DNA of 36,928 bases from Candidatus Cloacimonadota bacterium (lineage in GTDB: Bacteria; Cloacimonadota; Cloacimonadia; Cloacimonadales; TCS61), in the NCBI GenBank assembly GCA_021736135.1, contig JAIPGO010000032.1:1-36928 (forward strand), given 5' to 3'. The stretch's first letter is position 1. Every line of letters begins with the position of its first letter. Shown one piece after another: positions 13,638-34,805 of the stretch. The translations under genes were made by a program, and so were the position numbers. The notes under the pieces are model-generated. The model searched no databases. It had not been told where the DNA came from and saw nothing but the letters and a program-made list of their open reading frames with translations.

Positions 13638-14021
13638 ATGAAGAAGTCATCCGGCGGATTGATAGTAGAAATAGACAGAGAAAACGCGCTTAGAATTATC
13701 GATAAAGCTGCCCGTTTCATTGTGGAACGCAAGCTTTCTCCTGCCGCAATTATGACCATTGAATCCCTGCGCCCCTTAAATTTTATTGCCAGCCAGTTTA
13801 TGTATATGGTCGCTCCTTTTGCCGAATTATTTTTCTCACCCCGGGAATATCAGGAATTCGCTGCTCTTCTCGAGAATGACGAATATATCAAGCTGCTAAT
13901 GGAAAGGATCGATGAACTCGATGCAGAAATCTGGCGTGAAGAACATGAACTCAGGGTTATCAAACGTAAACTGAGTCGTGAAAAAAGAAAAATCTTCTTT
14001 AAAAAAATATTTAAGAAATAA
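13638..14021 (+). CDS. Hypothetical 127-aa protein leading the MutL-like cassette
   Basis: I do not recognise this family. The protein is soluble and mostly helical. It starts MKKSSGGLIVEIDREN, has a central hydrophobic/aromatic part (RPLNFIASQFMYMVAPFAELFF, about 49-70, with FFSPREYQEFAALLEN following) and a C-terminal charged helix ending in a strongly basic tail (KRKLSREKRKIFFKK). The ATG is preceded by AAAGG. It lies 11 bases before the MutL-like ATPase gene, with the same orientation, so it is very probably co-transcribed. That context suggests an accessory or membrane-proximal adaptor of that system, which is inference only. Confidence 0.75.
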   Translation: MKKSSGGLIVEIDRENALRIIDKAARFIVERKLSPAAIMTIESLRPLNFIASQFMYMVAPFAELFFSPREYQEFAALLENDEYIKLLMERIDELDAEIWREEHELRVIKRKLSREKRKIFFKKIFKK

Positions 14022-14032
14022 ATGGAGGAATT

Positions 14033-15895
14033 ATGGATCAAGAGTTAAGGCGTATTATTGCAACAGATTGCGGTAGTACGACGACCAAGGCGATTCTCAT
14101 TGAATACGTTGACGGTGAATTTCGTCAAACCGTACGCGGGGAAGCCCCCACGACCGTAGAAGCTCCGCTTAATGACGTTACCAGAGGTGTAATTAACGCT
14201 GTAACTGAAATGCAGGAGCTAGCGCGCATCAAATATAATAATCCTGACATTCTCTTAACTGACGGAGACAAATTGATCATCCCCCGCGAGGGTGATAAGG
14301 GTGCTGACGCATATGTTTCCACATCCAGTGCTGGCGGTGGTTTGCAGATGATGGTCACCGGTGTTGTTGCCAAAATGACAGGAGAAAGCGCAGAACGTGC
14401 CGCTCTCGGTGCGGGTGCTATTGTGATGGACCTCATTGCCAGTAACGATAAAAGACCCAATTATACCAAGATCGAACGCATCCGGCAATTGAGACCTGAT
14501 ATGATACTTATGGCTGGCGGCGTTGATGGTGGCACCACCAAGCACGTTGCCGAAATGGCGGAACTCGTAGGTGCTGCTAATCCCAGACCACGTCTTGGTT
14601 CCAGTTACAAACTGCCTATTATCTATGCAGGAAACGTTGATGCTCGTGAAATAATTAAAGAAACCCTCGGAGAGAAAGTTGGCTTGATCATTACCGATAA
14701 TCTGCGTCCCAGCCTGGAATCGGAAAATCTCGGTCCTGCTCGTGATAAAATCCATGATATATTCCTTGAACACGTGATGCAGCAGGCACCGGGCTACAAT
14801 AAACTAATGAAATGGACAGTAGGTCCCATTAATGGTAAACTGGAAAATATTTCTATTATGCCCACTCCTGCCGCTGTGGGGAATATTATGCAGACCATTG
14901 CCAGGAGAAATGATATTGAAGTTCTAGGGGTCGATATTGGCGGCGCTACCACAGACGTTTTTTCCGTTTTCACTCCTGAGCATATCTTCAACCGCACAGT
15001 TTCTGCCAATCTCGGGATGAGTTACAGTATATCCAACGTACTGGCTACAGCCGGGATCAAGGATATTATTCGCTGGGTGCCTTTCCCGATAGACGAATCG
15101 GAGCTGCTGAACATGATCAAGAATAAAATGATCAGACCCACCACGATACCTCAAAAACTCGAAGAACTGGTTCTGGAACAGGCAATTGCCAAGGAAGCCC
15201 TTAGATATGCTTTTATTCAGCATAAGGAATTTGCCGTTGCCCTCAAAGGTGCTCAGCGCCAGCGTGGAATCGATGAAGCCTTTTCTCAGAGTACTTCCGG
15301 TGATACAGTAGTCAATATGATGACACTTGATCTGCTTGTTGGTTCCGGTGGTGTGCTTTCTCATGCTCCGCGACGCCATCAGGGTGTGATGATGATGATT
15401 GACGCTTTTCTTCCCGAAGGCATTACCCGTCTTGCTGTGGATAGTATCTTTATGATGCCGCATCTTGGCGTACTCGCTGAAATCAGTGAGAAAGCCGCTA
15501 CGGAAGTTTTCGATAAAGACTGTATTATCTATCTTGGTTCTTGCGTGGCTCCGGTGGGTAAATGTAAACCAGGCAAAATTGCATTATCTGTGGAAATTAA
15601 ACTTCCCGATGGCACTTTATTCCAGGAAGACATTCCCTTTGGTGAAGTCAGACTTTTACCCTGCCCTCTTGGTCAAAAGGCAAAAGCAATCCTGAAACCG
15701 AAATCCGGACTTGATATTGGTGAAGGTAAAAATCAGGAAATCACTGCAGAACTCCACGGTGGAGTTGTTGGTATTGTTCTGGATACACGTGGACGCCAGC
15801 CTTTTGTTATCCCGGAAGATTCGGAAGAACGTGTGAAAGTGCTGAAAAAATGGATGCGGGAATTAAAAGCTTATCCCGAATCAATCTTGAATTAG
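14033..15895 (+). CDS. MutL/GlmL-family ATPase (mutase-associated ASKHA protein)
   Basis: This belongs to the GlmL/MutL family of acetate/sugar kinase-Hsp70-actin fold ATPases found with B12-dependent glutamate mutase and aminomutases, where a reactivation or assembly role is assumed. It is not mismatch-repair MutL. Phosphate-1 motif DCGSTTTKAI (12-21), STSSAGGGLQMMVTG, MAGGVDGGTTKHVAEMAEL, phosphate-2 motif DIGGATTDVFS (301-311) and the C-terminal GGVVGIVLDTRGRQPFVIP are all present at the normal length of 620 aa. An AGGAGG-like site (ATGGAGGAATT) precedes the ATG. A 374-aa partner gene follows after 10 bases. No mutase subunit is encoded nearby. A second family member, fused to the partner, lies at 19843-22824. 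Confidence 0.9.
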   Translation: MDQELRRIIATDCGSTTTKAILIEYVDGEFRQTVRGEAPTTVEAPLNDVTRGVINAVTEMQELARIKYNNPDILLTDGDKLIIPREGDKGADAYVSTSSAGGGLQMMVTGVVAKMTGESAERAALGAGAIVMDLIASNDKRPNYTKIERIRQLRPDMILMAGGVDGGTTKHVAEMAELVGAANPRPRLGSSYKLPIIYAGNVDAREIIKETLGEKVGLIITDNLRPSLESENLGPARDKIHDIFLEHVMQQAPGYNKLMKWTVGPINGKLENISIMPTPAAVGNIMQTIARRNDIEVLGVDIGGATTDVFSVFTPEHIFNRTVSANLGMSYSISNVLATAGIKDIIRWVPFPIDESELLNMIKNKMIRPTTIPQKLEELVLEQAIAKEALRYAFIQHKEFAVALKGAQRQRGIDEAFSQSTSGDTVVNMMTLDLLVGSGGVLSHAPRRHQGVMMMIDAFLPEGITRLAVDSIFMMPHLGVLAEISEKAATEVFDKDCIIYLGSCVAPVGKCKPGKIALSVEIKLPDGTLFQEDIPFGEVRLLPCPLGQKAKAILKPKSGLDIGEGKNQEITAELHGGVVGIVLDTRGRQPFVIPEDSEERVKVLKKWMRELKAYPESILN

Positions 15896-15905
15896 GAGGT
15901 AAATA

Positions 15906-17030
15906 ATGGCACAAGCATATTCTGCCGGTTTAACCGTAACTGAAAGTATCACTCTCCGGAAAGAAAGAATACTGCCCTTGAAAGGACAGGTACTCGTAAA
16001 AAAGGGTGACAAAGTCAAAGCTCAGGATTTAGTTGCTCAGACCCTTCTCCCGGGCAAAGTGGTTCCCTTTAATCTTTCAAATAAACTCGGCGTCCCTGCC
16101 GATCAGGTAAAAAACTACGTCAGAGTGACCGAAGGAAATGATATTAAAAAGGGTGATGTTATCGCCCAGACCAAAGGCATCTTCGGGCTCTTTAAAAATA
16201 CCGTTAAATCTCCTATCACAGGTGAGATTGAGAATATTTCTAAAATTACAGGTCAAATGCTGCTCCGCGAACCGCGGATTCCCGTCCAGATTAAAGCCTT
16301 TATTGATGGTATTATTGTTGATATTATTCCGGAAGAAGGCGTTGTTATAGAAAACCGCTCTGCCTATGTGCAGGGGATTTTCGGAATTGGCGGGGAAACC
16401 TATGGCAAGATCAAAATCCTGGTGAAAAATCCTCAGGATACCATTAATAAAGATGATATCGATGAATCCTGTAAAGGAATGATCTGCGTATGCGGTGCAC
16501 TCGTTGATTATGATACTATTAAAAAGGCGCAGCAGGTAGGCGTTAGTGCTCTTATTACCGGGGGTATAGACGATAATGACCTGAAGAAACTCCTTGGTTA
16601 TAATATCGGCGTGGCTATAACAGGTCACGAGGATATCGGTATCAGTATCATCTGTACTGAGGGTTTTGGAAATATCAAAATGGCGGAAAATACCTTCAAT
16701 CTTCTGAAGAAGTTCGAAGGGAAAGATGCTTCCTGCCATGGCAAAACCCAGATCCGAGCCGGAGTTATGAGACCCGAAATTATCGTTTCTCTTGATTTTA
16801 AGGAAGACGAACTCTCCGTGGAAGCACCCAAATCTTCCACTCTGGAAATTGGTGGACGCATCCGCATCATCAGACAACCCAATTTTGGCGAAATCGGCAA
16901 AATTACTGCCCTTCCGGAAGAACTCACTATGGTCGAATCAGAAACCCTCGTCCGCATCCTCGAAGCGCAGCTTGATAACGGTGAAAAAATCGTTATTCCC
17001 CGAGCCAACGTGGAAGTTATTGAAGAATAA
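15906..17030 (+). CDS. Barrel-sandwich partner protein of the MutL-like ATPase
   Basis: This 374-aa cytoplasmic protein is of unknown function. Residues 20-50 (ILPLKGQVLVKKGDKVKAQD) and 75-115 (GNDIKKGDVIAQ, then SPITGEIENISK) have the alternating G-V and G-D pattern of barrel-sandwich (lipoyl/biotinyl or RnfC-N-like) domains. No EAMKM-type lysine site is seen. A central alpha/beta part follows (CVCGALVDYDTIKKAQQVGVSAL, VAITGHEDIGISI, HGKTQIRAGVMRPEI). Residues 312-374 look like an SH3/KOW-type barrel (GGRIRIIRQPNFGEIGKI). AGGAGG lies before the ATG, 10 bases after the ATPase gene. Everything except the last barrel is paralogous to the C-terminal half of the 993-aa fusion on the other strand, which makes it a likely direct partner of the ATPase. 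Confidence 0.85.
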   Translation: MAQAYSAGLTVTESITLRKERILPLKGQVLVKKGDKVKAQDLVAQTLLPGKVVPFNLSNKLGVPADQVKNYVRVTEGNDIKKGDVIAQTKGIFGLFKNTVKSPITGEIENISKITGQMLLREPRIPVQIKAFIDGIIVDIIPEEGVVIENRSAYVQGIFGIGGETYGKIKILVKNPQDTINKDDIDESCKGMICVCGALVDYDTIKKAQQVGVSALITGGIDDNDLKKLLGYNIGVAITGHEDIGISIICTEGFGNIKMAENTFNLLKKFEGKDASCHGKTQIRAGVMRPEIIVSLDFKEDELSVEAPKSSTLEIGGRIRIIRQPNFGEIGKITALPEELTMVESETLVRILEAQLDNGEKIVIPRANVEVIEE

Positions 17031-17790: not shown

Positions 17791-18630
17791 CTAACGGGGA
17801 GAACAGGTTAGCACCAGAGGCAGTTTGTGAGTCTGGAAAATAGAGCGCAGATTTCGGGGAGAGACGTCATTTCCGGCGATAATGTTAATGAGCAGGCTGT
17901 CATTTTCCAGGAACATACTGGCGGGAGAACCGCCGTCGAGGTGCATCATATATTGGAGGTTAAAGGGCATTTTCCGGCAGAGATCGATAAACTCATAATT
18001 AAAATATTTTTTGAGTGAGAGCAGCCAGTATATTCTGCCATCCTCATCCATAGCCAGGGCTGCTTCGTTCCATTTTTCCGTTTTATCCAGCCAGACGTTT
18101 TCCGCATCCGAGGATAACATGCGCATACCGCAGACGACCTGTCGATACTTTTTTAAAAGGTCAGTATCTTCATTGTGCAGATCTATAAGCCGGGCAGAGG
18201 GCAGTGCAGGGTCGAGGGGTTCACAGACAAAAGCCATCAGATAATAATCTGAGAACTGGTCATTATTGATAAATCTGCCATTGCGGAAATAACTGGTGGA
18301 AGTGAGTACGTCTTCGGCAAACATGGCCGCATTGATGATGGCGGTTTTATGGAATTTTTTCTGCCATTTACGAGCGGAAAGGCGTCTGTTTTCAAACATG
18401 GATGCAGCCAGCAGGTCAAAGCGATAAAATTCCGGATTAAAGCGCAGAGCAATCAGTTCCGGTTCAGGTAAATCAGGTTCCAGGTCCCATTTACCCAGAG
18501 CAAGGCCTGGGGAAATTATATGCCATGAATTCCTGGAGAGTGCCAACCAATGCTGTCTTTTCGCTTTCGTTTTGCTGCAGCCCGAAAGCAGTAATAAAAT
18601 GATGAGCGAAAATAATAATTTTTTAATCAT
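17791..18630 (-). CDS. Lipoprotein with phosphodiester glycosidase (NAGPA)-like domain
   Basis: The start at 18630 gives a 279-aa lipoprotein with signal MIKKLL, a hydrophobic run and LSGC (C18). A longer start would only prepend translated 3' sequence of the upstream gene. The mature part resembles the NAGPA/phosphodiester-glycosidase family, which hydrolyses phosphodiester-linked sugars and is often found with exopolysaccharides. INAAMF (99-104) stands where the family has NGGFF, and LDGGSPASMF (231-240) corresponds to LDGGGSS-type motifs. The variant residues mean activity is uncertain. It overlaps the glycosyltransferase stop by 8 bases and is the last gene of a minus-strand operon headed by the MutL-like fusion. 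Confidence 0.75.
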   Translation of the reverse strand: MIKKLLFSLIILLLLSGCSKTKAKRQHWLALSRNSWHIISPGLALGKWDLEPDLPEPELIALRFNPEFYRFDLLAASMFENRRLSARKWQKKFHKTAIINAAMFAEDVLTSTSYFRNGRFINNDQFSDYYLMAFVCEPLDPALPSARLIDLHNEDTDLLKKYRQVVCGMRMLSSDAENVWLDKTEKWNEAALAMDEDGRIYWLLSLKKYFNYEFIDLCRKMPFNLQYMMHLDGGSPASMFLENDSLLINIIAGNDVSPRNLRSIFQTHKLPLVLTCSPR

Positions 18631-19846
18631 TATCAGGATCAGGAAAATGCTTTTGCAGCCGCTCAAACACAGCCGCCCAGGAATGTGATTTCAGGCTCTC
18701 GAGATGAACAGGAGGTTCCTGATTGCTTTTAGACAGGCAGGTTTTTATTGCGGAACTCAGATCAGCTACATAAGCTCCAACTTTCTCCGGGACAGGTTCA
18801 TCAGTATTAACCAGCTCTGGCAAAGGGACAAAATCAATGAGACCGGATTGAATAATTTTATCCCCGAGCCATTCTTTCAGACCGGGAAGATCGTTTACGA
18901 TTATCCGTAAACCGCAGGCAAGAGCTTCAATGAGAACCAATGGCAGTCCTTCATAATAAGAAGGCAGAATTAAAATATCACTATGCCGGAATATTTCTGC
19001 CAGATCCTCCTGTGTTACATTTCCCTTGAATTCATGAGGAAAACGGCACTGCCCGGCAATTTGTCTGATATGGCTGGTTTCTTCACCAGCGCCGGAACCA
19101 CAAAGCGTCAGCCGGAAATTTTTATCAGTTTTATAAAGAAACTCCAGGGCAGAAAACAGTTCTTTGAGCCCCTTGGCATAAGATAATTTTCCGGCATAGA
19201 CAAACCGCTTTGTACGGGAGGCATCTCGTTGCTGCGGGTAAAAGAGCAGCTCATTATATCCGTTGCCGGAAATTACTATCCGACCGGGATCAATGGCAAA
19301 GGAATTGCTGAGCTTTTCTTTCTGGCTACGGTTGAGAGCAAAGACCAGATCAATATTTTTAAGCTGAGGCAGTATGAGAGGAGCGAAGTGAGGGCAGAAA
19401 TTCTGTTGTCTGAGAGCAGTACCATGGCAAATAGCGTAAAGGGGAAGGGAAGGCGCCATTTGTCTGGCAAGAGCGGTAAGCAGCCAGAGGTGGTGAGAAA
19501 GTATCAGGTCCGGTTTAAATTCATCGATAGCCTGCTGTAATCTCTCTTGAAAGGCATTTTGCCACTGGCTGAGCATATCCGGTGATAAGTCACGATAGCG
19601 CGAACTGGGATATGGCATCACGTCACTCATCCCGGTAACCGGAAAAGGCAGCTTCGCTGTTTCAAAGTAAACAGGATAAAATGTAAGCGGAGCAGAACTA
19701 TCAAATACAATCTTCAATTCTCGCGGTATACCGCAAATGACAGCCTGTTCATATCCGGCAGAAGCAGCAAGCGGAATTATTGACCGCAGATATATGCCAC
19801 TTCCTGTAAAGCCAGGTATTTGTGCTAACAGATGTAGAATTTTCAA
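18623..19846 (-). CDS. Family 1/4 glycosyltransferase
   Basis: This is a GT-B retaining glycosyltransferase of 407 aa acting on an unknown acceptor. The N-terminal Rossmann half starts KILHLLAQIPGFTGSGIYL (glycine-rich, as in GT4). RFVYAGKLSYAKGLKEL opens the donor-binding half. PSYYEGLPLVLIEALACG contains the E-x7-E motif, followed by VNDLPGLKEW. Translation starts at TTG, which overlaps the TGA of the MutL-like fusion (TTGA), so translational coupling is likely. The next gene overlaps its end by 8 bases. Confidence 0.9.
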   Translation of the reverse strand: MKILHLLAQIPGFTGSGIYLRSIIPLAASAGYEQAVICGIPRELKIVFDSSAPLTFYPVYFETAKLPFPVTGMSDVMPYPSSRYRDLSPDMLSQWQNAFQERLQQAIDEFKPDLILSHHLWLLTALARQMAPSLPLYAICHGTALRQQNFCPHFAPLILPQLKNIDLVFALNRSQKEKLSNSFAIDPGRIVISGNGYNELLFYPQQRDASRTKRFVYAGKLSYAKGLKELFSALEFLYKTDKNFRLTLCGSGAGEETSHIRQIAGQCRFPHEFKGNVTQEDLAEIFRHSDILILPSYYEGLPLVLIEALACGLRIIVNDLPGLKEWLGDKIIQSGLIDFVPLPELVNTDEPVPEKVGAYVADLSSAIKTCLSKSNQEPPVHLESLKSHSWAAVFERLQKHFPDPDND

Positions 19847-22824
19847 ATCTTTTCAGTCTGGGGTTGAAGAATTATCTGAGGACGTGTAACACCAGCCCTG
19901 ATCTGTGTATGGCCGTCAATGAAGGTGCTGGCACCATTCATACTCTGGAAAAAGGTCAGCATTTCCGGAGGAAGGTCATATTCTCCAAAGCCCTGCATAA
20001 GAATAAGAGGGAAAGGGATATTTTCATTACCGGTGAGAGCCACGCCGATATCGTCATTAATATACTTTTTCAAGTCACGGTAATGGATGGAAGGAGCAAT
20101 AATACCGGCAACGCGGGCATTTTCCGCTTCTTTCAAAAAGGCAAAATCAACTGGTTTTGTGAGCAGCAAAACGGGATTATCAGATAAATTATCCGGCAGA
20201 ACATTTTGCGGGCAAAAAACGAGAGTGCCGGGAGTTGCTGCGCCAAAGCCGATAATTCCCTGCAAAAACCAGCCTTCGTAATTTATCTCAATTTCGAGAG
20301 CATTTTTAATAGAATTAATAACTCCCCAAACTCCTGCATAATGAGATAGCGGTTTGCGGTCATATCTGATGGTGAGAGTACCTTTGATCAGATCAATATT
20401 TTCGATAGTACCCGTGGCAGGAGCAATAATGGAATTATATTTAAGCGAATCAGTATTTTCGCTATCAGCGCCGGGAGATTTATCGATATTCATTTTATCG
20501 AGCATAGAGCTGGCAGCCGTATTGGCTCGATCGAGTCTGATAGCAGCTATAAGGTCTCCGGAATAAACAAAATCGCCTTCGTTGACCTTAAGGTAGCCTT
20601 TCATTTTGGCAGGTTTGATGCCCAGCCGGTCGCTGATCTTTACTTTGACAGGTTTTTCGGAATAATCCTGAACTTCTCGCAGAATGATCGTGCCGGCGTC
20701 AAAATTGATGTTTTCCACAATACCGCGGAGAGGTGAATCAAAAGTATGGGCAATGCCCTGCATCTGTTCTTTGAGAGAAAGCTTTTTGCGGTCAACGATC
20801 TTCTGTCCCATTTTTATAATTTCACCTTCTTTAACCAGCAGGCTTTCCTTAATATTTTCGCGGTTCAAACCGAGATTATAGCGGTCAAAGAGCGTAATTA
20901 TGTAAAGTTTGGGCGGATCGCTGCGGTTTTCGGCAATGATCATATCCGGGTTAACACTGTCGCCTTCGGCAACCATGATCTCACCGCTATAGGGCAAAGT
21001 TACCAGTCGCTGAAAAGAGCCTTTTTGCGGAAGGAAATGAGGCATGGCAAGGGGGAATATTTCCTCCAGTGCAGGGATTTTGTCTTTCAGCTCATATAAT
21101 TCGTGAAAATCGGTCAGAATATTATCAGCATCAGGGAAAGTGGTATCTATATAAAGCGGCAGTTTAGTTTTCAGAGTAAGTGAAATGGCATCATCATTAA
21201 GCCGGAAACCCCTGGCAAGCTCGATTGTATATTCCAGTTCAGCATCTGTTGCCTGGTCAAGCAGATATTTTCTGCCGGCAACAACCTGTAGATCGATATT
21301 CTGGGCAGTAAGGCGCATTACTTTTGTCCCGGCTTTCCATTTGGAAGTTTGCGGTCTGATGTGCCAGCCCAATTCCTGCAGGCATTCGTGGATAAGAAGA
21401 TCAGCAGCAAGAGTTGCATCAATCTGGGATAATTTTCCGAGATGTGGAGAAGTGAAATCACGGTCGCGAAAGATGAGAGTTAAACCCTGCATCTGCAAGC
21501 CGTCTGCAATGAGCATCAGTGCCTGCTGCGGATTTTGCGTATGAGATATCACGCCACCCGCCCCAATGGCATAGTGATAGTCATGCAGAAAAAATCTCTC
21601 TTTTCTGTTGCTTTCCTTGAAATAGAATTTATCAACAATACTTTCAATATTCTTGTGATCAACCAGTTTATCGAGAAATCCGAGACGGTCGGAATTAAAA
21701 TTCATCTCAAGATGCTGATTGCGCGCCAGAAGCAGGGCTGCGCGCGCCAGAATATGCTCGATGAGAAAATGCAGAGATGCCTGGGGATTACAGGTGGGAA
21801 AGAGCATTTTATCGGCAATATAATCCTGAACATAATCAGCATCACAATCAGGGGGCAATTCGCGGCTGAGTATTTCCCAGCCGGTATCCTTGAAAACGTT
21901 GGAAATGCTGTAACTCATACCGTAATTAGCGGAAACAGTGCGGTAAAATTCACTATGCATATTGGAAAAGACATCGGTGGTGGCACCTCCGATATCAACC
22001 ATCATCACGTCCCCTGATTTTTCCTGATGAAGAAGCTCGATTGCCTTGAGCACAGCCAGGGGCGTGGGAATAATATCATCCGCCACTCGGGAAAGCACCT
22101 GCTCATATCCGGGAGCCTGTTCCATCACGTAATTCATAAAAAGCTCATGGATCAGGTTTCTGGCAGGGGTATGATTTTCTTTGGTCATATTTGGTCGCAC
22201 ATTTTCTACCAGATGCAGTTGAAATCTTTTTTTAAGAATTCCCTTTATAAGTGGCTGAGCTTCGATATTTCCGGCAAAAATGAGCGGTATCGGTGCTGTG
22301 GAAAATTTGGCGCGGGGATTGGCAAACTGCAAAAGTTCTGCCAGACGCACAACCGGAGCAATGGCACCGCCATCAGTACCGCCTGTCATAAGAATGAGGT
22401 CAGGATGCAATCTTGCCATTGCTTTCATTTGTTGCACGGCAGAGCGTTTATCATTGATGGCAAAAGTATCAAGAATCACGGCACCAGCTCCAAAAGCGCA
22501 GCGTTTTCCGCTGGCTGCGCTGTCAAAAGTCGTAAGCCCGATAACGAGAATCTGTAAGCCACCGCCAGCACTGCTGGTGCAGTATAAGGAAACATTTTCA
22601 GCAGGAATGCTGTTTTCTTTATCCTGCCAGAGCGTTATACCGGTATTTTGTTCAAGAATATTTACGGCATTATTGATGCCGATAATAACGTCTTCAAGCG
22701 GTTTTTCTACTGTAGTGGCAGTATGCACGAGGGCATGATTGTGGAAACCATTGCTGTCCTTTTTCAGGAGTAATGCTTTGGTTGTGGTGCTGCCGATATC
22801 AATGATCAGGATCAGATCTTTCAT
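19843..22824 (-). CDS. Fusion: MutL/GlmL-like ATPase plus barrel-sandwich partner domain
   Basis: This 993-aa protein has an ASKHA ATPase half (1 to about 540) with DIGSTTTKALLL (9-20), CTSSAGGGLQILVIGL, MTGGTDGGAIAPVVRLAEL and DIGGATTDVFS (277-287). It continues into about 385 residues equivalent to the separate 374-aa protein at 15906-17030. Matching segments include PYSGEIMVAEGDSV, RLGIKPAKMKGYLKVNEGD, APATGTIENIDLIKGT, DIGVALTGNENI and GHTQIRAGVTRPQI. The summed length of the separate pair is 994. It lacks the MutL C-terminal DTRGR segment and the terminal SH3-like barrel. GGAGG precedes the ATG. It heads an operon with a glycosyltransferase and a glycosidase-like lipoprotein, and no mutase is adjacent. 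Confidence 0.88.
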   Translation of the reverse strand: MKDLILIIDIGSTTTKALLLKKDSNGFHNHALVHTATTVEKPLEDVIIGINNAVNILEQNTGITLWQDKENSIPAENVSLYCTSSAGGGLQILVIGLTTFDSAASGKRCAFGAGAVILDTFAINDKRSAVQQMKAMARLHPDLILMTGGTDGGAIAPVVRLAELLQFANPRAKFSTAPIPLIFAGNIEAQPLIKGILKKRFQLHLVENVRPNMTKENHTPARNLIHELFMNYVMEQAPGYEQVLSRVADDIIPTPLAVLKAIELLHQEKSGDVMMVDIGGATTDVFSNMHSEFYRTVSANYGMSYSISNVFKDTGWEILSRELPPDCDADYVQDYIADKMLFPTCNPQASLHFLIEHILARAALLLARNQHLEMNFNSDRLGFLDKLVDHKNIESIVDKFYFKESNRKERFFLHDYHYAIGAGGVISHTQNPQQALMLIADGLQMQGLTLIFRDRDFTSPHLGKLSQIDATLAADLLIHECLQELGWHIRPQTSKWKAGTKVMRLTAQNIDLQVVAGRKYLLDQATDAELEYTIELARGFRLNDDAISLTLKTKLPLYIDTTFPDADNILTDFHELYELKDKIPALEEIFPLAMPHFLPQKGSFQRLVTLPYSGEIMVAEGDSVNPDMIIAENRSDPPKLYIITLFDRYNLGLNRENIKESLLVKEGEIIKMGQKIVDRKKLSLKEQMQGIAHTFDSPLRGIVENINFDAGTIILREVQDYSEKPVKVKISDRLGIKPAKMKGYLKVNEGDFVYSGDLIAAIRLDRANTAASSMLDKMNIDKSPGADSENTDSLKYNSIIAPATGTIENIDLIKGTLTIRYDRKPLSHYAGVWGVINSIKNALEIEINYEGWFLQGIIGFGAATPGTLVFCPQNVLPDNLSDNPVLLLTKPVDFAFLKEAENARVAGIIAPSIHYRDLKKYINDDIGVALTGNENIPFPLILMQGFGEYDLPPEMLTFFQSMNGASTFIDGHTQIRAGVTRPQIILQPQTEKI

Positions 22825-29702: not shown

Positions 29703-30572
29703 TTATTTTTCTTCGGCAGCTTTTGCTGCTGCTTCAGCTTTCAGTTTTGCTTCCGCTCTTTTTTTTGCCCTTATCTCCTTGAGCGGATCAAAGATGGCTC
29801 CTGTAGGACAGACATCGGCACATATTCCGCACATAATGCAGAGATCGTAATTTAATACCGCTAGATTGTCTTTCATCTCGATGGCAGCCTTAGGACATTT
29901 CTTCACGCACATTGAACAGCCGATACAGGCAGTTTTATTGCCGCAGACTTTACGGGATTCCGCGCCTTTATCGTGTGAAGAACAGAGAATATGCACTCTT
30001 TTTTTTGCTGAAACGATCTCAATCAGATTTCTGGGGCAGGCTTTGGCGCAAGCGACGCAACCGGTGCACTTTTCCTTGTCAATAATGCGCATCCCGTTTT
30101 CATCAATAGAAATAGCATCAAATTTGCAGGCACTTGCGCAGTCATTATAACCAAGGCAACCCCAACTGCATAAATTAGGTCCGTTATTGATCAGAATGGC
30201 AGCTTTGCAGGTGGTCACTCCCTGATATTCATAGCGGAAGATCGTATTATTTTTGCCGCCGCTCTGGCATTTGATCACAGCCACTTTTTTATCGGCAGCT
30301 ACGGCTTCTTTGCCCATTATGGCGGCGATTTCCTTTACAACTGCAGCCCCACCGGGTGCACATTTATTCAATTCTTCATTATGCATCACAATAGCTTCCG
30401 CATAAGCCGCACAACCGGGATAGCCGCAGGCTCCGCAATTAGCGCTGGGTAATGCTTCCGTTATAGCTTCAATTTTAGGGTCGATCTCCACGTGAAATTT
30501 CTTGGATGCCACTGCCAGCCCCAGTCCATAAAGTAAGCCCAGAGCTCCTAATATTATTATTGCACCAATCAT
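29703..30572 (-). CDS. rnfB: Rnf complex subunit B (iron-sulfur)
   Basis: RnfB is the ferredoxin-facing subunit of the ion-pumping ferredoxin:NAD+ oxidoreductase. It has an N-terminal membrane anchor (about 3-22), then the Fe-S domain ANCGACGYPGCAAYAEA with a later KCAPGG (one 4Fe-4S). Four more cysteine sets follow (CSWGCLGYNDCASAC, CTGCVACAKACP, CIGCSMCVKKCP, CIMCGICADVCP), a ferredoxin-like wiring typical of anaerobe RnfB. It ends in an alanine/lysine-rich helix. At 289 aa it is the last gene of the operon and starts 12 bases after rnfA. Confidence 0.96.
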   Translation of the reverse strand: MIGAIIILGALGLLYGLGLAVASKKFHVEIDPKIEAITEALPSANCGACGYPGCAAYAEAIVMHNEELNKCAPGGAAVVKEIAAIMGKEAVAADKKVAVIKCQSGGKNNTIFRYEYQGVTTCKAAILINNGPNLCSWGCLGYNDCASACKFDAISIDENGMRIIDKEKCTGCVACAKACPRNLIEIVSAKKRVHILCSSHDKGAESRKVCGNKTACIGCSMCVKKCPKAAIEMKDNLAVLNYDLCIMCGICADVCPTGAIFDPLKEIRAKKRAEAKLKAEAAAKAAEEK

Positions 30573-30584
30573 TATATCTCCCCT

Positions 30585-31172
30585 TTAAAAATTTAAACCG
30601 CTGAAGCCGAGAAAGGCCAGTGCCATACAGCCGGCAATCACAAATGCTATCGGCATTCCTTTCATTGCTTCCGGTACTTCAGATTTTTCCAGTCTTTCCC
30701 GCAATCCCGCCATCAGCAGCAGAACCAGCGTGAAACCAGTCCCGGAAAAGAGTCCGTTCAAAATTGCACCCAGGAAATTATAGCCTTCCTGGATGTTCAG
30801 AATGGAAACGCCGAGAACCGCACAGTTGGTTGTGATCAAAGGCAGAAAAACACCCAGTGATTTGTATAGCGCCGGAGCTGTCTTCTGGATCACCATTTCC
30901 ACGAATTGCACCAGGGAAGCGATAGTTAAGATGAAAGCAATGGTCTGCAGATATTCCAGATGATAAGGCAGCAGCAGATATTCCTGGATCAGCCAGGTGA
31001 ATGTTGAAGCCATAGTCATCACGAATATCACTGCCATGCCCATGCCCAGGGCGGAATCTATCTTCTTGGAAACTCCGATATACGGGCAAAGTCCCAGAAA
31101 CTTCGAGAGCACGAAGTTGTTCACGAATACCGCAAATACGGCTAAGGTAAAAACCTGTGTTATGAATGACAT
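30585..31172 (-). CDS. rnfA: Rnf complex subunit A (membrane)
   Basis: RnfA is an integral membrane subunit of Rnf with six predicted helices. It pairs with RnfE, to which it is homologous. GLCPYIG (C29) and TTNCAVLG (C117) hold the two conserved cysteines that, with the matching pair in RnfE, can bind an intramembrane Fe-S cluster. N-terminal [14 protein letters not shown] is diagnostic. At 195 aa it has normal length. It starts directly after rnfE with no spacer. Confidence 0.96.
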
Positions 31173-31775
31173 TTAAGCCCCCTGCTTCTTTTTCATCTGA
31201 TTGATCAGTCCCATCAGTAAACCCATGATTATAAAAGCCCCGGGTGCCAGAATGGCTATGAGCATCGGGCTTTTGATATAAGCAGCAGGCATAACGTTCA
31301 TTCCCAGCCACTGTCCGGCTCCCAGAATTTCTCGTATGGAAGCAATCACGATCAGTGCCAGTGTAAAACCAAGCCCCATTCCCAGTCCATCCATAATGGA
31401 AGGAATTACACCATTTTTGCTGGCAAATGCTTCTGCCCGGCCTAAAATAATGCAGTTTACCACGATAAGCGGTATAAAAAGTCCCAGACTCTTATGAATT
31501 TCCGGCGTGTAGGCATACATCACCATATCCACGATAGTAACGAAAGATGCGATGACTACTATGAAACAGGGAATCCTGATCTTGCCGGGAATTAATCCTT
31601 TGAGCAATGAAATGAAGATATTGGAGCAAACCAGCACAAATGTTGCCGCCAGACCCATTCCGATGGCATTTTGCACCGATGAAGTCACTGCCAGCGTCGG
31701 GCATAAGCCCAGTGCCATGATAAATACCGGATTCTCTTTTATAAAACCTTTGGTAAATTCCTGGAATAATCTCAT
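31173..31775 (-). CDS. rnfE: Rnf complex subunit E (membrane)
   Basis: RnfE is the paralogue of RnfA in the same complex. ENPVFIMALGLCPTLAVT (C25) and VNCIILGRAEAFA (C108) carry the conserved cysteines, and about six hydrophobic helices span the 200 aa. The ATG overlaps the rnfG stop by 4 bases, and rnfA begins on the next base after its stop. The product ends in a short basic tail MKKKQGA. Confidence 0.96.
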   Translation of the reverse strand: MRLFQEFTKGFIKENPVFIMALGLCPTLAVTSSVQNAIGMGLAATFVLVCSNIFISLLKGLIPGKIRIPCFIVVIASFVTIVDMVMYAYTPEIHKSLGLFIPLIVVNCIILGRAEAFASKNGVIPSIMDGLGMGLGFTLALIVIASIREILGAGQWLGMNVMPAAYIKSPMLIAILAPGAFIIMGLLMGLINQMKKKQGA

Positions 31776-32377
31776 CTTTCTTCCTCCTTACCAACTGCAT
31801 CTGTCAATATCTGTAAACCGGCAGCGATGGAATTGGTCACTGCCCGTGATGTAATGGTCGCCCCCGTTAAGGACACGATTTCTCCGCCATCCTTATCAAC
31901 TTTCAGCTCGGATATTTGCTTCTTTTCAAAACGCTGACGGAAAACATCCGTGGCAGCATTTGCGCCCAGGCCCGGAGTTTCCGCCTGTTCAATAACTTTG
32001 ATCTTGATAATGTTCATTGCCGTATCCACGCCGACCATGGTTTTCACTTCACTGGAATAGCCATACTGGCTGGCAACAAAAGTGTATCCTGTCAGGTTGC
32101 CTTCGGTATCAAGTCCACTGTAATAAACAAATTCCAGTGGTCCCTCGGCAACCTGTTTCTTGAGCGGATTCGGTTCTGCCTGCACGGGTGGCAGAATTAC
32201 TGACTGTTTATCAAATTTCGCCGTCCCCGGCAGAACTTCTATGCGTGCCAGTTCTTCAGCTTTCACTTTATTTTCGGCGATCTTGTCTTTCGTGAGGTCA
32301 TTGACGTAAGCCAGAATACCGCTGGCTATGGCGGTGATGATCAAAAGCACTAAACCGAGTTTGATGAAATAACTCAT
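31772..32377 (-). CDS. rnfG: Rnf complex subunit G (FMN-binding)
   Basis: RnfG has one N-terminal membrane helix (about 3-24) and a periplasmic flavin domain. SLTGATITS (about 169-177) is the covalent-FMN motif, with T174 as the expected attachment residue, and ETPGLGANA is also diagnostic. The start at 32377 (MSYFIKLGL) has GGGGAGG upstream and gives 201 aa. An upstream in-frame ATG at 32413 would contain this ribosome binding site and overlap rnfD more deeply. The real start overlaps the rnfD stop by 4 bases. Confidence 0.95.
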   Translation of the reverse strand: MSYFIKLGLVLLIITAIASGILAYVNDLTKDKIAENKVKAEELARIEVLPGTAKFDKQSVILPPVQAEPNPLKKQVAEGPLEFVYYSGLDTEGNLTGYTFVASQYGYSSEVKTMVGVDTAMNIIKIKVIEQAETPGLGANAATDVFRQRFEKKQISELKVDKDGGEIVSLTGATITSRAVTNSIAAGLQILTDAVGKEEER

Positions 32378-33450
32378 TTCTTCACCTCCCCGAATGGCTT
32401 CGGTGCCGACCATTTATCTATTAATGGCACACAGCAGTTCATCAGTAATATGGAATAGGATACGCCTTCCGGATAGCCTCCCCAAAGCCTGATGACCGTG
32501 GTCAAAATCCCCGCGCCGATTCCGAAAATGAGCATGCCTTTCCTGGTCACGGGAGATGTTACCATGTCTGTAGCCATAAAGAACGCACCCAGGATCAAAC
32601 CACCGGAAAATATATGAAATACCGGCAGAAGTATGCTGGCGGAAAATAGCCCGTGCATTCCTCCAAAGGCATAAGTGAGGATAAATACGGTAAAAATATA
32701 GCTGATCGGAATGCGCCAGCTTATGATGTAACGATAGGCAAGAAATGCCGCTCCGATCAGTAATGCCAGAGCAGATACTTCCCCGATCACGCCACCAATA
32801 TTACCCAGAAATATATTCGATATCGTATCCACGCTTGCCAGACGGTCAACCAGTTGCTGTGCCAGTTCCGGATTGCTGTCAGATAGCTCTCTGGCAGTTT
32901 TCATAGCTGCCAGCGGAGTGGCGCCCGTAAATGCTGCCGGTGCTGCTGCCGGAATACTGGCAGGATTTAATCCGTTGATGCTGTTGAACATAAAGGAAAA
33001 TGCCGGTTTCGTTGCCGTCCAGTTCGCCGTTACCAGCGAGGGCCAGCTCGCCAGCAAAAATGCTCTGCCCAGAAGAGCAGGATTAAATAAATTGTGACCT
33101 AATCCGCCAAATATCTGTTTTCCTATGGCTATGGCAAATACGCTGCCGATCACGGGCAGCCACCACGGACTTGCCACATTCAGATTGAAAGCGACCAGAA
33201 TCCCCGTGACCACTGCTGAGCCGTCAGATATTGATACCGGTATTTTACGCAGTTTCTGTATCGCATATTCCGTTACGATGGCAGCAAATACACCATATAC
33301 CGTTAATGCCAGTGATTTAAATCCATAAAAAAACACCGCCATTGCCAGTGCGGGCATCAGGGCTAAAACCACCTGCCACATCACAGAACTGACGGTCATC
33401 TGTTTTTCTTTTAAGTGCGGAGCTGCTGAAACTATATATTTTTGATTCAT
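32374..33450 (-). CDS. rnfD: Rnf complex subunit D (FMN-binding membrane)
   Basis: RnfD is a multi-span membrane subunit, homologous to NqrB, thought to lie in the ion path. It has FTGATPLAAMKTA (T178, the covalent FMN threonine), KQIFGGLGHNLFNPALLGRAFL and MATDMVTSPVTRKG, and ends in helices with VIRLWGGYPEGVSYSILLMN. At 358 aa it has normal length. It starts 14 bases after rnfC and overlaps rnfG by 4 bases. Confidence 0.96.
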   Translation of the reverse strand: MNQKYIVSAAPHLKEKQMTVSSVMWQVVLALMPALAMAVFFYGFKSLALTVYGVFAAIVTEYAIQKLRKIPVSISDGSAVVTGILVAFNLNVASPWWLPVIGSVFAIAIGKQIFGGLGHNLFNPALLGRAFLLASWPSLVTANWTATKPAFSFMFNSINGLNPASIPAAAPAAFTGATPLAAMKTARELSDSNPELAQQLVDRLASVDTISNIFLGNIGGVIGEVSALALLIGAAFLAYRYIISWRIPISYIFTVFILTYAFGGMHGLFSASILLPVFHIFSGGLILGAFFMATDMVTSPVTRKGMLIFGIGAGILTTVIRLWGGYPEGVSYSILLMNCCVPLIDKWSAPKPFGEVKK

Positions 33451-33464
33451 TAATCTCCCTCCCC

Positions 33465-34805
33465 TTAAGCCTTTGCCGACTGTTGGCGGTTACGCATGCG
33501 CTTGCCAACTTCCAGTTTGCCAATATCGATCCACTGGATAAGTTTGATCTGAGCAGGACAAATATAAGCGCAGGAGCCGCATTTCATGCAGTCCATCACG
33601 CCATATTTTTCAGCCTGCTCCCAGTCATTATAGCGTACACCGCTCACGATAAGGCTCGGTGCTATATTCATGGGACAGACTTCCACGCATAAACCGCAGC
33701 GCAGGCAGGTATATTCCCGGTCTTTTTCAGCTTCTTTTTTATTGAAAAGTAAAAGTCCGGAACTGCCCTTGGTCATTGGTGTGTCCAGAGTAGATATAGC
33801 AAAACCCATCATTGGTCCGCCGGATATTACTTTATAAACATCTTCAGTTGTACCACCGCAATATTCAAGAAGTTCGCTATATAGCGTACCGATTCTTGCT
33901 TTGAGGTTTTTGGGATTTTTCACGATCTTGCCCGATACGGTGATCACGCGCTCAATGAGTGGTTTTTGATATCGTATGGCTTCATAAACGGCTACTGCTG
34001 TTCCCACGTTCTGCACCACAACGCCTACGGCCATAGGCAATCCGCCCTTATTGGGCACCTTGCGTTTTGTGCAGGCATAGATCAGTTGTTTTTCGGCACC
34101 CTGCGGATATTTAAGTTTGAGAGCATCCACCCGGATATTCTTTTCTTTGGCTAATGCCTGACGCATTTTCTTAATACAGTCCGGCTTGTTGGCTTCGATG
34201 CCGATGATTCCCTGTTTTGCGCCTACGATCTTCATGAGCAGCTTCAAACCCTTGATCACGTCATCAGTCTGCTCCAGTATAACCCGATAATCCGCCGTTA
34301 AATAAGGCTCACATTCCACGCCATTCAGAATTACCGTGTCGATCGGCTTGTCCGCCGGTGGTGACAGTTTCACGTGCGTGGGAAAGCCCGCTCCCCCCAT
34401 TCCGCAGATTCCTGCCCCGGCAATCCGCTTTTTCATCTCGTCTGCCGGCAGGTTTTCATAATTCTGATCATCTGTCAGTTCCACCCAGTTATCTTCACCA
34501 TTACCCGTGATCTCGATCACGGTTCCGGTTGTTCCTGCCGGATGGGCAAAGGAATCGATCCTGCTCACTTTCCCCGTTATCGGCGCATGCATGGGAATTG
34601 ATACAAAACCTCCCGGTTCTGCTATCAATTGTCCCGTTAAAACTTCTTCGCCAACCTTGACCACCGGTTTTGCCGGTGCTCCGATATGCTGGCTCAAATG
34701 CACATACACCTTCGGGGGCAAGGGCATAGTCTCAATGGCGGCATTCCGAGAATAACCCTTGTTATCGTGGGAATGAACACCACCAGGGAACGTTTTTAAT
34801 CCCAT
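33465..34805 (-). CDS. rnfC: Rnf complex subunit C (NADH-binding)
   Basis: RnfC is the peripheral cytoplasmic subunit that exchanges electrons with NAD(H). It has an N-terminal barrel-sandwich domain (GGVHSHDNKGYSRN, then HAPITGKVSRI) and an NuoF-like FMN/NADH domain with GAGICGMGGAGFPTHVKL and NGVECEPYLTADYR. There is an SLBB-like part, and two 4Fe-4S sites CLRCGLCVEVCP and CMKCGSCAYICP near the end. At 446 aa it looks complete. It is the first gene of rnfCDGEAB, the order usual in clostridia-like anaerobes. AAGGGG lies before the ATG. The upstream 150 bases are AT-rich with a weak TTGCAT / AATATG promoter pair. Confidence 0.96.
   Translation of the reverse strand: MGLKTFPGGVHSHDNKGYSRNAAIETMPLPPKVYVHLSQHIGAPAKPVVKVGEEVLTGQLIAEPGGFVSIPMHAPITGKVSRIDSFAHPAGTTGTVIEITGNGEDNWVELTDDQNYENLPADEMKKRIAGAGICGMGGAGFPTHVKLSPPADKPIDTVILNGVECEPYLTADYRVILEQTDDVIKGLKLLMKIVGAKQGIIGIEANKPDCIKKMRQALAKEKNIRVDALKLKYPQGAEKQLIYACTKRKVPNKGGLPMAVGVVVQNVGTAVAVYEAIRYQKPLIERVITVSGKIVKNPKNLKARIGTLYSELLEYCGGTTEDVYKVISGGPMMGFAISTLDTPMTKGSSGLLLFNKKEAEKDREYTCLRCGLCVEVCPMNIAPSLIVSGVRYNDWEQAEKYGVMDCMKCGSCAYICPAQIKLIQWIDIGKLEVGKRMRNRQQSAKA

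Follow-up and report, generated by a model that had tools for sequence, protein, structure and literature searches.

A predicted swivelling-domain partner protein linked to a long-form MutL-type ATPase and a DUF6754 membrane-protein set in Cloacimonadota and other bacteria

MutL-type ATPases are usually regarded as repair helpers for vitamin-B12 enzymes, and family libraries name the proteins of the MutL family mutase accessory or reactivation factors. The swivelling beta/beta/alpha fold class takes its name from the arm of the glycerol/diol dehydratase reactivases. For the glycerol dehydratase reactivase, an alpha subunit is described that combines an Hsp70-type ATPase domain with a swivelling domain (1NBW); this domain is reported to hold the beta subunit, which ATP hydrolysis helps to detach (PMC7674605). 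Among the open-access papers searched we found none on DUF6754, PF13941 or PF20539 and nothing on COG0145/glutamate mutase MutL or on glutamate mutase in Cloacimonadota, and we recognised there no description of the seven-gene system presented below.

The window, by which we mean the whole 36,928-nucleotide stretch of Candidatus Cloacimonadota DNA that was analysed, holds a triad of genes in the order SML-MutL-P0001 with intergenic gaps of 11 nt and 10 nt (Table 1). P0001, encoded by the third gene, is referred to here as the partner; this name and the labels M5, M4, TT and SML were coined in the present analysis. The P0001 ATG lies 10 nt past the MutL stop and is preceded by AGGAGG with a 6-nt spacer, and on these features the open reading frame is a real gene with a putative ribosome-binding site of its own. 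The position of the terminator-like hairpin is the chief argument for it, since a scan returned 6 such sites against 5.2 in shuffles. The small protein SML has no Pfam family and no PADLOC match, and its cluster was found upstream of MutL in 17 of 22 loci. On the opposite strand the window encodes the fused paralogue P0002, whose partner-like C-terminal part (about 19843-21003) lacks the KOW barrel; P0002 and the ATPase of the triad, P0003, are the sole two MutL matches of the own genome in a profile search. A protein that weakly resembles phosphodiester glycosidases and a GT4-like glycosyltransferase are encoded just downstream of P0002 on the same strand (17791-19846), and six Rnf-type genes including a normal RnfC occupy minus-strand positions 29703-34805, a local contrast to P0001. 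A Wzz-like protein, judged by eye, stands 3' of the partner in 6 of the 11 loci compared; the gene at this position in L041 matches Wzz, and such a neighbour is probably a lineage habit.

Table 1. Features of the partner locus, in window coordinates
Feature	Position	Strand	Size or basis
SML, small protein, first gene of the triad	13638..14021	+	127 aa
P0003, MutL-type ASKHA ATPase, long form	14033..15895	+	620 aa, PF13941
P0001, partner protein, open reading frame	15906-17030	+	ATG to stop, 374 aa
P0001 barrel-sandwich hybrid region, residues about 10-130	15933..16295	+	Pfam profiles, model
P0001 predicted swivelling beta/beta/alpha domain, residues about 130-298	16296..16799	+	fold match of the model, conserved patch
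P0001 KOW/SH3-like barrel, residues about 311-374	16836..17027	+	structural match
Terminator-like hairpin directly 3' of P0001	17039..17068	+	13-pair stem
P0002, fused paralogue, MutL ATPase with partner-like C-terminal part	19843..22824	-	993 aa

The structural model of P0001 was built from a 23-row alignment and has a mean pLDDT of 85.7 and a pTM of 0.69. In the N-terminal region the best Pfam resemblance is to the RnfC/NqrA N-domain over residues 55-116, P0001 alone falling just under the cut-offs of both RnfC_N (2.1e-5, 24.9 bits, cut-off 25.6) and NQRA_N (9.2e-5, 23 bits, cut-off 25). Among the rows of alignment A2 the Biotin_lipoyl profile matched 23 of 23 at E<=0.5 (best 4.9e-8) and RnfC_N 22 of 23 at the same threshold (best 9.8e-8), in accordance with the barrel-sandwich motifs proposed by an earlier, sequence-only reading of this DNA. 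Model confidence is high in this region (block means 87-94, with residues 91-100 at 71); the structural matches scarcely cover it and the assignment there is profile-based. In a Pfam scan at E<=1, P0001 showed no Nuo51 FMN, SLBB or Fe-S domain, all of which are present in the RnfC of the window. The Biotin_lipoyl matches could be read as a swinging carrier with a covalent biotin or lipoyl group, and we regard this as hardly credible because no lysine is invariant among 36 homologues: at K97, near the likely hairpin, lysine is found in 32 of the 36 (T in two, H in one and R in one) and at K90, also near the likely hairpin, in 20, so that it is missing in 4 and 16 homologues respectively. The carrier was thus rejected as a candidate, and the sequence-only reading had itself seen no modification lysine and had argued against a swinging carrier.

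The central block of P0001 gave no family match in sequence profile searches, and P0001 compared with the PDB by sequence gave weak rows only (best E 0.042); to this extent the earlier statement that the block is unlike any enzyme the reader recognised holds, the model now supplying a fold class. The block models as a swivelling beta/beta/alpha domain, with structural matches to RraA (1q5x_C, Z 9.0, rmsd 3.1 over 125 residues; 1j3l_A, Z 9.3, rmsd 4.3 over 132 residues), to UPF0107 AF_0055 (2hi6, Z 9.1, rmsd 2.7 over 110 residues), to rifampin phosphotransferase (5hv2, Z 8.5) and to pyruvate kinase (2e28, Z 8.3), the VIA Z-scores of 8.3-9.3 being slightly above the usual 7-8. We take all four to have the swivelling fold (SCOP). 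The alpha subunit of the dehydratase reactivase (1NBW) is absent among the structural matches listed for P0001. Foldseek gave no convincing whole-protein match, its single row at E<=0.001 being NusG (TM 0.16), followed by ZNRF3 ectodomains and some aminopeptidases, whose PA domains presumably belong to the same swivelling fold class. Fourteen of the 17 ten-residue blocks of the domain are modelled at pLDDT >=88 and the remainder at 70, 82 and 71; the two most conserved loops fall in less confident blocks (231-240 at 70 and 281-290 at 71).

Conservation is concentrated in a patch made up of the segments QGIxG, TGxE, TEGFG and TQIRAGVxRP. T281-V287, R289, P290 and G279 are invariant in 21 of 21 rows with the fused paralogue included, so that of three blocks singled out from the sequence KTQIRAGV stands, TGHEDIG is upheld at T239, G240 and E242 alone (21 rows) and CVCGALV is variable, its relatives having VIVAGAF, VLVGGS and similar stretches. 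Across 36 homologues, positions at 95% identity make up 26% of residues 230-298, 13% of the barrel-sandwich region and 9% of the KOW region. The C-terminal SH3/KOW-like barrel seen in the sequence-only reading is borne out by the model, where residues 313-374 superpose on KOW domains (8ram_Z with an rmsd of 1.0 over 51 residues at Z 9.1, and many more KOW rows) and block means are 61-88; by sequence, KOW5_SPT5 appeared in only 1 of 23 rows with a best E of 0.07.

The ATPase preceding P0001, P0003, matches PF13941 with 412 bits over residues 8-497 and continues for about 120 aa beyond the profile. Its segments DCGSTTTK, DIGGATTDV and GSGG are presumably ASKHA motifs. It stays under the cut-offs of all three NCBIfam GlmL-type models (201.5/475, 188.5/600 and 154/204), and MutL compared with solved structures by sequence has no relatives. 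P0002 scores 319 bits against PF13941; residues 22-124 of P0001 align with its residues about 609-719 and residues 93-295 with about 792-987, a second barrel-sandwich-like stretch is present and the chain stops right after the swivel part, which confirms the earlier remark that only the split version carries the terminal barrel. A model of P0002, for which MutL and partner rows were combined in a single alignment, is too poor (pLDDT 53.5, pTM 0.31) to show whether arm and ATPase touch.

In the ADurb.Bin157 phylum a MutL lies <=1.5 kb from the partner in 27 of the 29 partner-bearing genomes, and 26 of these 27 partner-adjacent MutLs are frames of 602-680 aa, the other being a frame of 400 aa that lies where a contig begins. 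The MutLs of this phylum that lie away from the partner have frames of 445-581 aa, three shorter pieces excepted, and that of G212 (579 aa) is among the longest of them. Those of G216 (571 aa) and G198 (581 aa) share a contig with DUF6754, the partner match being on another contig, and may be of the long form too. A tree of 24 MutLs separates the long and fused proteins from the short ones with a split support of 100/99, the bootstrap not being settled and L119, L100 and others sitting on long branches. In five of the ten genomes checked (G043, G044, G060, G061 and G062) the sole MutL match is the long one; G066 gave the same long-only result and is an apparent repeat of G044 with identical coordinates. 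G063 has three MutLs: a short one of 469 aa that belongs to a glutamate mutase locus, with a B12-binding protein, the methylaspartate mutase E chain and methylaspartate ammonia-lyase, another beside alanine-racemase-like genes, and a long one beside the partner and the membrane proteins described below.

A mutase had been offered, next to the ATPase, as a surface on which P0001 might dock. The own genome (98% complete) contains two PF02310 B12-binding domains only and neither is of the mutase type, the presence of mutases being judged here through this domain alone. The first, whose gene has methyltransferase genes around it, is an MtgC-like corrinoid protein, and the second, beside a histidine kinase, has a weak CarH/MtgC resemblance; both are below the NCBIfam cut-offs. 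At L047 (contig 63 of G000) MtaA/UroD-like methyltransferase genes stand close on both sides of the MtgC-like corrinoid protein. Docking on a B12 mutase was consequently rejected for this genome, and in G063 the glutamate mutase has its separate short MutL. The own genome does contain a class II ribonucleotide reductase (723 bits) and P0001 is next to a PF13941 protein, from which one could suppose that the system reactivates an adenosylcobalamin enzyme, perhaps this reductase, and that P0001 is its client-gripping subunit. We think this quite improbable: the sole two PF02310 matches are those just described, the reductase model scores above its cut-off in 7 of the 14 control genomes and the MutL profile in none of them, the short MutLs form a separate group, and no B12-binding domain was found among the window neighbours or the neighbours scanned in L037-L041.

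The partner and its MutL are strongly linked to a set of membrane proteins, which we call the quartet and which consists of a DUF6754 protein, to which a crude count from hydropathy assigns about 3 TM, the multi-TM M5, TT with two TM and a soluble domain, and M4 with 3-5 TM and conserved charged residues, for example in KDN and EHxG segments. A Pfam scan of TT returned scattered single-member matches only (best SGNH, 0.01), one M5 resembles 7TMR-DISM_7TM below the cut-off (2.1e-5, 25 vs 29 bits), and sequence searches against solved structures found no relative of TT or of DUF6754. The gene order DUF6754-M5-TT-M4-SML-MutL-partner was found in 9 of 12 ADurb.Bin157 genomes, or in 10 of 13 when L041 (G063) is added, ten of the 12 regions having been chosen for having both genes on one contig. 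G208 has this order without a detected SML, G207 has the quartet and the MutL-partner pair at two separate places, and G204 has the triad only, at a contig edge. In L040 the seven genes form two swapped blocks, and in both L040 and L041 the triad adjoins four membrane-protein genes, one of which is DUF6754. The own genome has no quartet in the window and two elsewhere, on contig 83 with a short DUF6754 protein and on contig 3 with a long one of 1005 aa. Most quartets in the Cloacimonadota regions read form an operon of their own, and only in G037 does one lie beside a MutL; there a fused MutL-partner gene is followed by a long DUF6754, M5, TT and M4.

Several loci contain additional copies or genes. 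In a Zixibacteria locus (L106:4401-15299, G061) the DUF6754-M5-TT-M4 quartet occurs three times in tandem, and as many as 6 DUF6754 matches were counted per genome in this phylum. An eighth small protein of about 140 aa adjoins SML in four loci (L097:9622-10038, L098:9632-10045, L104:7742-8155 and L040:5378-5836), in three of them between M4 and SML, and has TM-like segments in L040. Between MutL and the partner, a Zixibacteria locus (L039:2638-3471) encodes a protein of 265 aa that starts with a signal-like stretch and has a TM at its C-terminal end, and about 0.6-0.8 kb of extra sequence is found at the same place in L009, L013 and L022 of Cloacimonadota.

Membrane proteins with conserved charged residues (KDN and EHxG in M4) and the RnfC_N and NQRA_N resemblances of P0001 would together fit a redox or ion-translocating complex, in which the quartet moves ions or electrons and the barrel-sandwich seats P0001 in the manner of the RnfC/NqrA N-domains. 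This reading appears unlikely to us. No flavin, Fe-S or quinone domain was recognised in the components scanned, and the window already has its six Rnf-type genes with a normal RnfC; moreover we know of no ASKHA ATPase that forms part of Rnf or Nqr.

Co-occurrence of the two halves was followed across genomes. Of 59 Cloacimonadota relatives 57 have DUF6754, against 0 of 14 controls, G040 (91% complete) and G044 (93% complete) having the partner without a DUF6754 match; DUF6754 was also present in 7 of the 8 genomes behind the chosen loci, some of which duplicate the 59-genome set, and in all 132 genomes of the phylum to which the Zixibacteria locus belongs, where at least 44 genomes have DUF6754 and the partner within 8 kb. 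The 39 genomes of the ADurb.Bin157 phylum comprise 28 with both, nine with neither, one with DUF6754 only (G218, which also lacks MutL) and one with the partner only (G204). The two are therefore jointly present or jointly absent in 37 of 39 (Fisher p 4.6e-7, a value that ignores kinship, and the nine joint absences may equal few events). Among the 28 genomes with both, the two genes lie within 5.4 kb in 21, 74 kb apart in one and on different contigs in six. This co-inheritance with the quartet marker DUF6754, and the closeness of the KOW fold (rmsd 1.0 to 8ram_Z), would also suit a biogenesis factor that uses its KOW barrel to bind the ribosome, nascent RNA or RNA polymerase and, with MutL, helps the quartet to assemble. 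Such a role is very doubtful, given that the fused paralogue beside the quartet in G037 ends without KOW and that conservation within P0001 is lowest in the KOW region (9%, vs 26% for residues 230-298).

The partner itself is widespread. In 59 genomes, the own one and relatives of the same family or order, it is near full-length in 52 and a copy cut by a contig end in 2; in the five without a split partner, G025 has a 28-residue contig-edge fragment and G001, G036, G038 and G048 have the fused type only. Partial second copies near the intact gene in two genomes (G004:C42:8470-8754 and G021:C387:13728-13994) are possibly decaying duplicates. Named relatives at 60-86% identity belong to Candidatus Cloacimonadota, and a search of named genomes with short peptide patterns found the partner beyond Cloacimonadota, among the matches listed, in WOR-3, Zixibacteria, ADurb.Bin157 and one further bacterium at 48-53% identity. 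In the phylum of the Zixibacteria locus it is present in 123 of 132 genomes and gave no match in nine. In both WOR-3 loci the partner does not adjoin MutL: in G060 the long MutL is on another contig and G059 has a MutL fragment only. Two further ideas were discarded, a viral origin because IMG/VR gave no confirmed relatives of the partner or DUF6754, and an anti-phage defence system because 10 of its proteins, compared with the PADLOC models, gave 0 matches at E<=0.01.

Taken together, we lean towards a role of P0001 as the arm by which the long-form MutL ATPase acts on the membrane complex, the biochemical act being the part that we infer. Docking on the ATPase, proposed already from the sequence as a clamp or arm, is well supported because of the MutL adjacency in 27 of 29 genomes and because P0002 is a fusion of MutL and partner, and both the swivelling-domain model and the lack of an invariant lysine agree with an arm or clamp. 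P0001 would be a partner subunit dedicated to a long-form MutL-type ASKHA ATPase. In a system of seven genes, SML, MutL and P0001 would make up the half that is cytosolic and uses ATP, and the membrane quartet would be the other half. Binding and hydrolysis of ATP by MutL would move the swivelling domain that bears the conserved patch, and the swivel could then push against the cytosolic face of the membrane complex and activate, remodel or energise it. For the contact point our first guess is the conserved DUF6754 domain, and the barrel-sandwich and KOW barrels may serve as docking surfaces, P0001 acting as an arm or clamp and not as a covalent carrier.

Nearly all of the Cloacimonadota and Zixibacteria-phylum genomes sampled have the DUF6754 system, which also occurs in at least three further groups. 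With somewhat less confidence than for the arm itself, we speculate that it is not a cofactor-repair chaperone but an undescribed ATP-driven envelope machine, in which an arm of barrel-sandwich, swivel and KOW domains is worked by an ASKHA ATPase against a DUF6754 complex. If our hypothesis were correct this would be a new class of ASKHA-powered membrane system and many MutL-family annotations would be misleading; in the genomes read, the long MutL is tied to the membrane system rather than to a mutase. A context would be provided for DUF6754 and for three membrane families that have no Pfam name, and ASKHA ATPases would gain a membrane client open to genetic and structural testing.

Among known systems, the proposed arrangement resembles the glycerol/diol dehydratase reactivase in that an Hsp70-type ATPase works with a swivelling domain (PMC7674605). 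It differs in that the predicted swivel belongs to a chain of its own, or to the C-terminal part of P0002, in that P0001 adds barrel-sandwich and KOW domains, and in that the constant companions are membrane proteins, no dehydratase being seen in the loci read. P0003 belongs to the same Pfam family as GlmL/MutL (PF13941, NF040745; 412 bits) but is longer, falls below three NCBIfam cut-offs, stands apart from the short forms and has a constant partner and no mutase nearby. The N-domain of RnfC/NqrA is the best Pfam resemblance for residues 55-116 of P0001, just under the cut-offs, and the Nuo51, SLBB and Fe-S domains of RnfC are missing from P0001. RraA, UPF0107 AF_0055 and the C-terminal domains of rifampin phosphotransferase and pyruvate kinase have the fold class in common with the modelled swivel of P0001, and at 11-22% identity in the matches listed this is a shared fold only. 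Likewise, the KOW domains of NusG/Spt5 share the fold of residues about 311-374, but no NusG N-terminal domain is recognised in P0001 and the likeness is one of fold.
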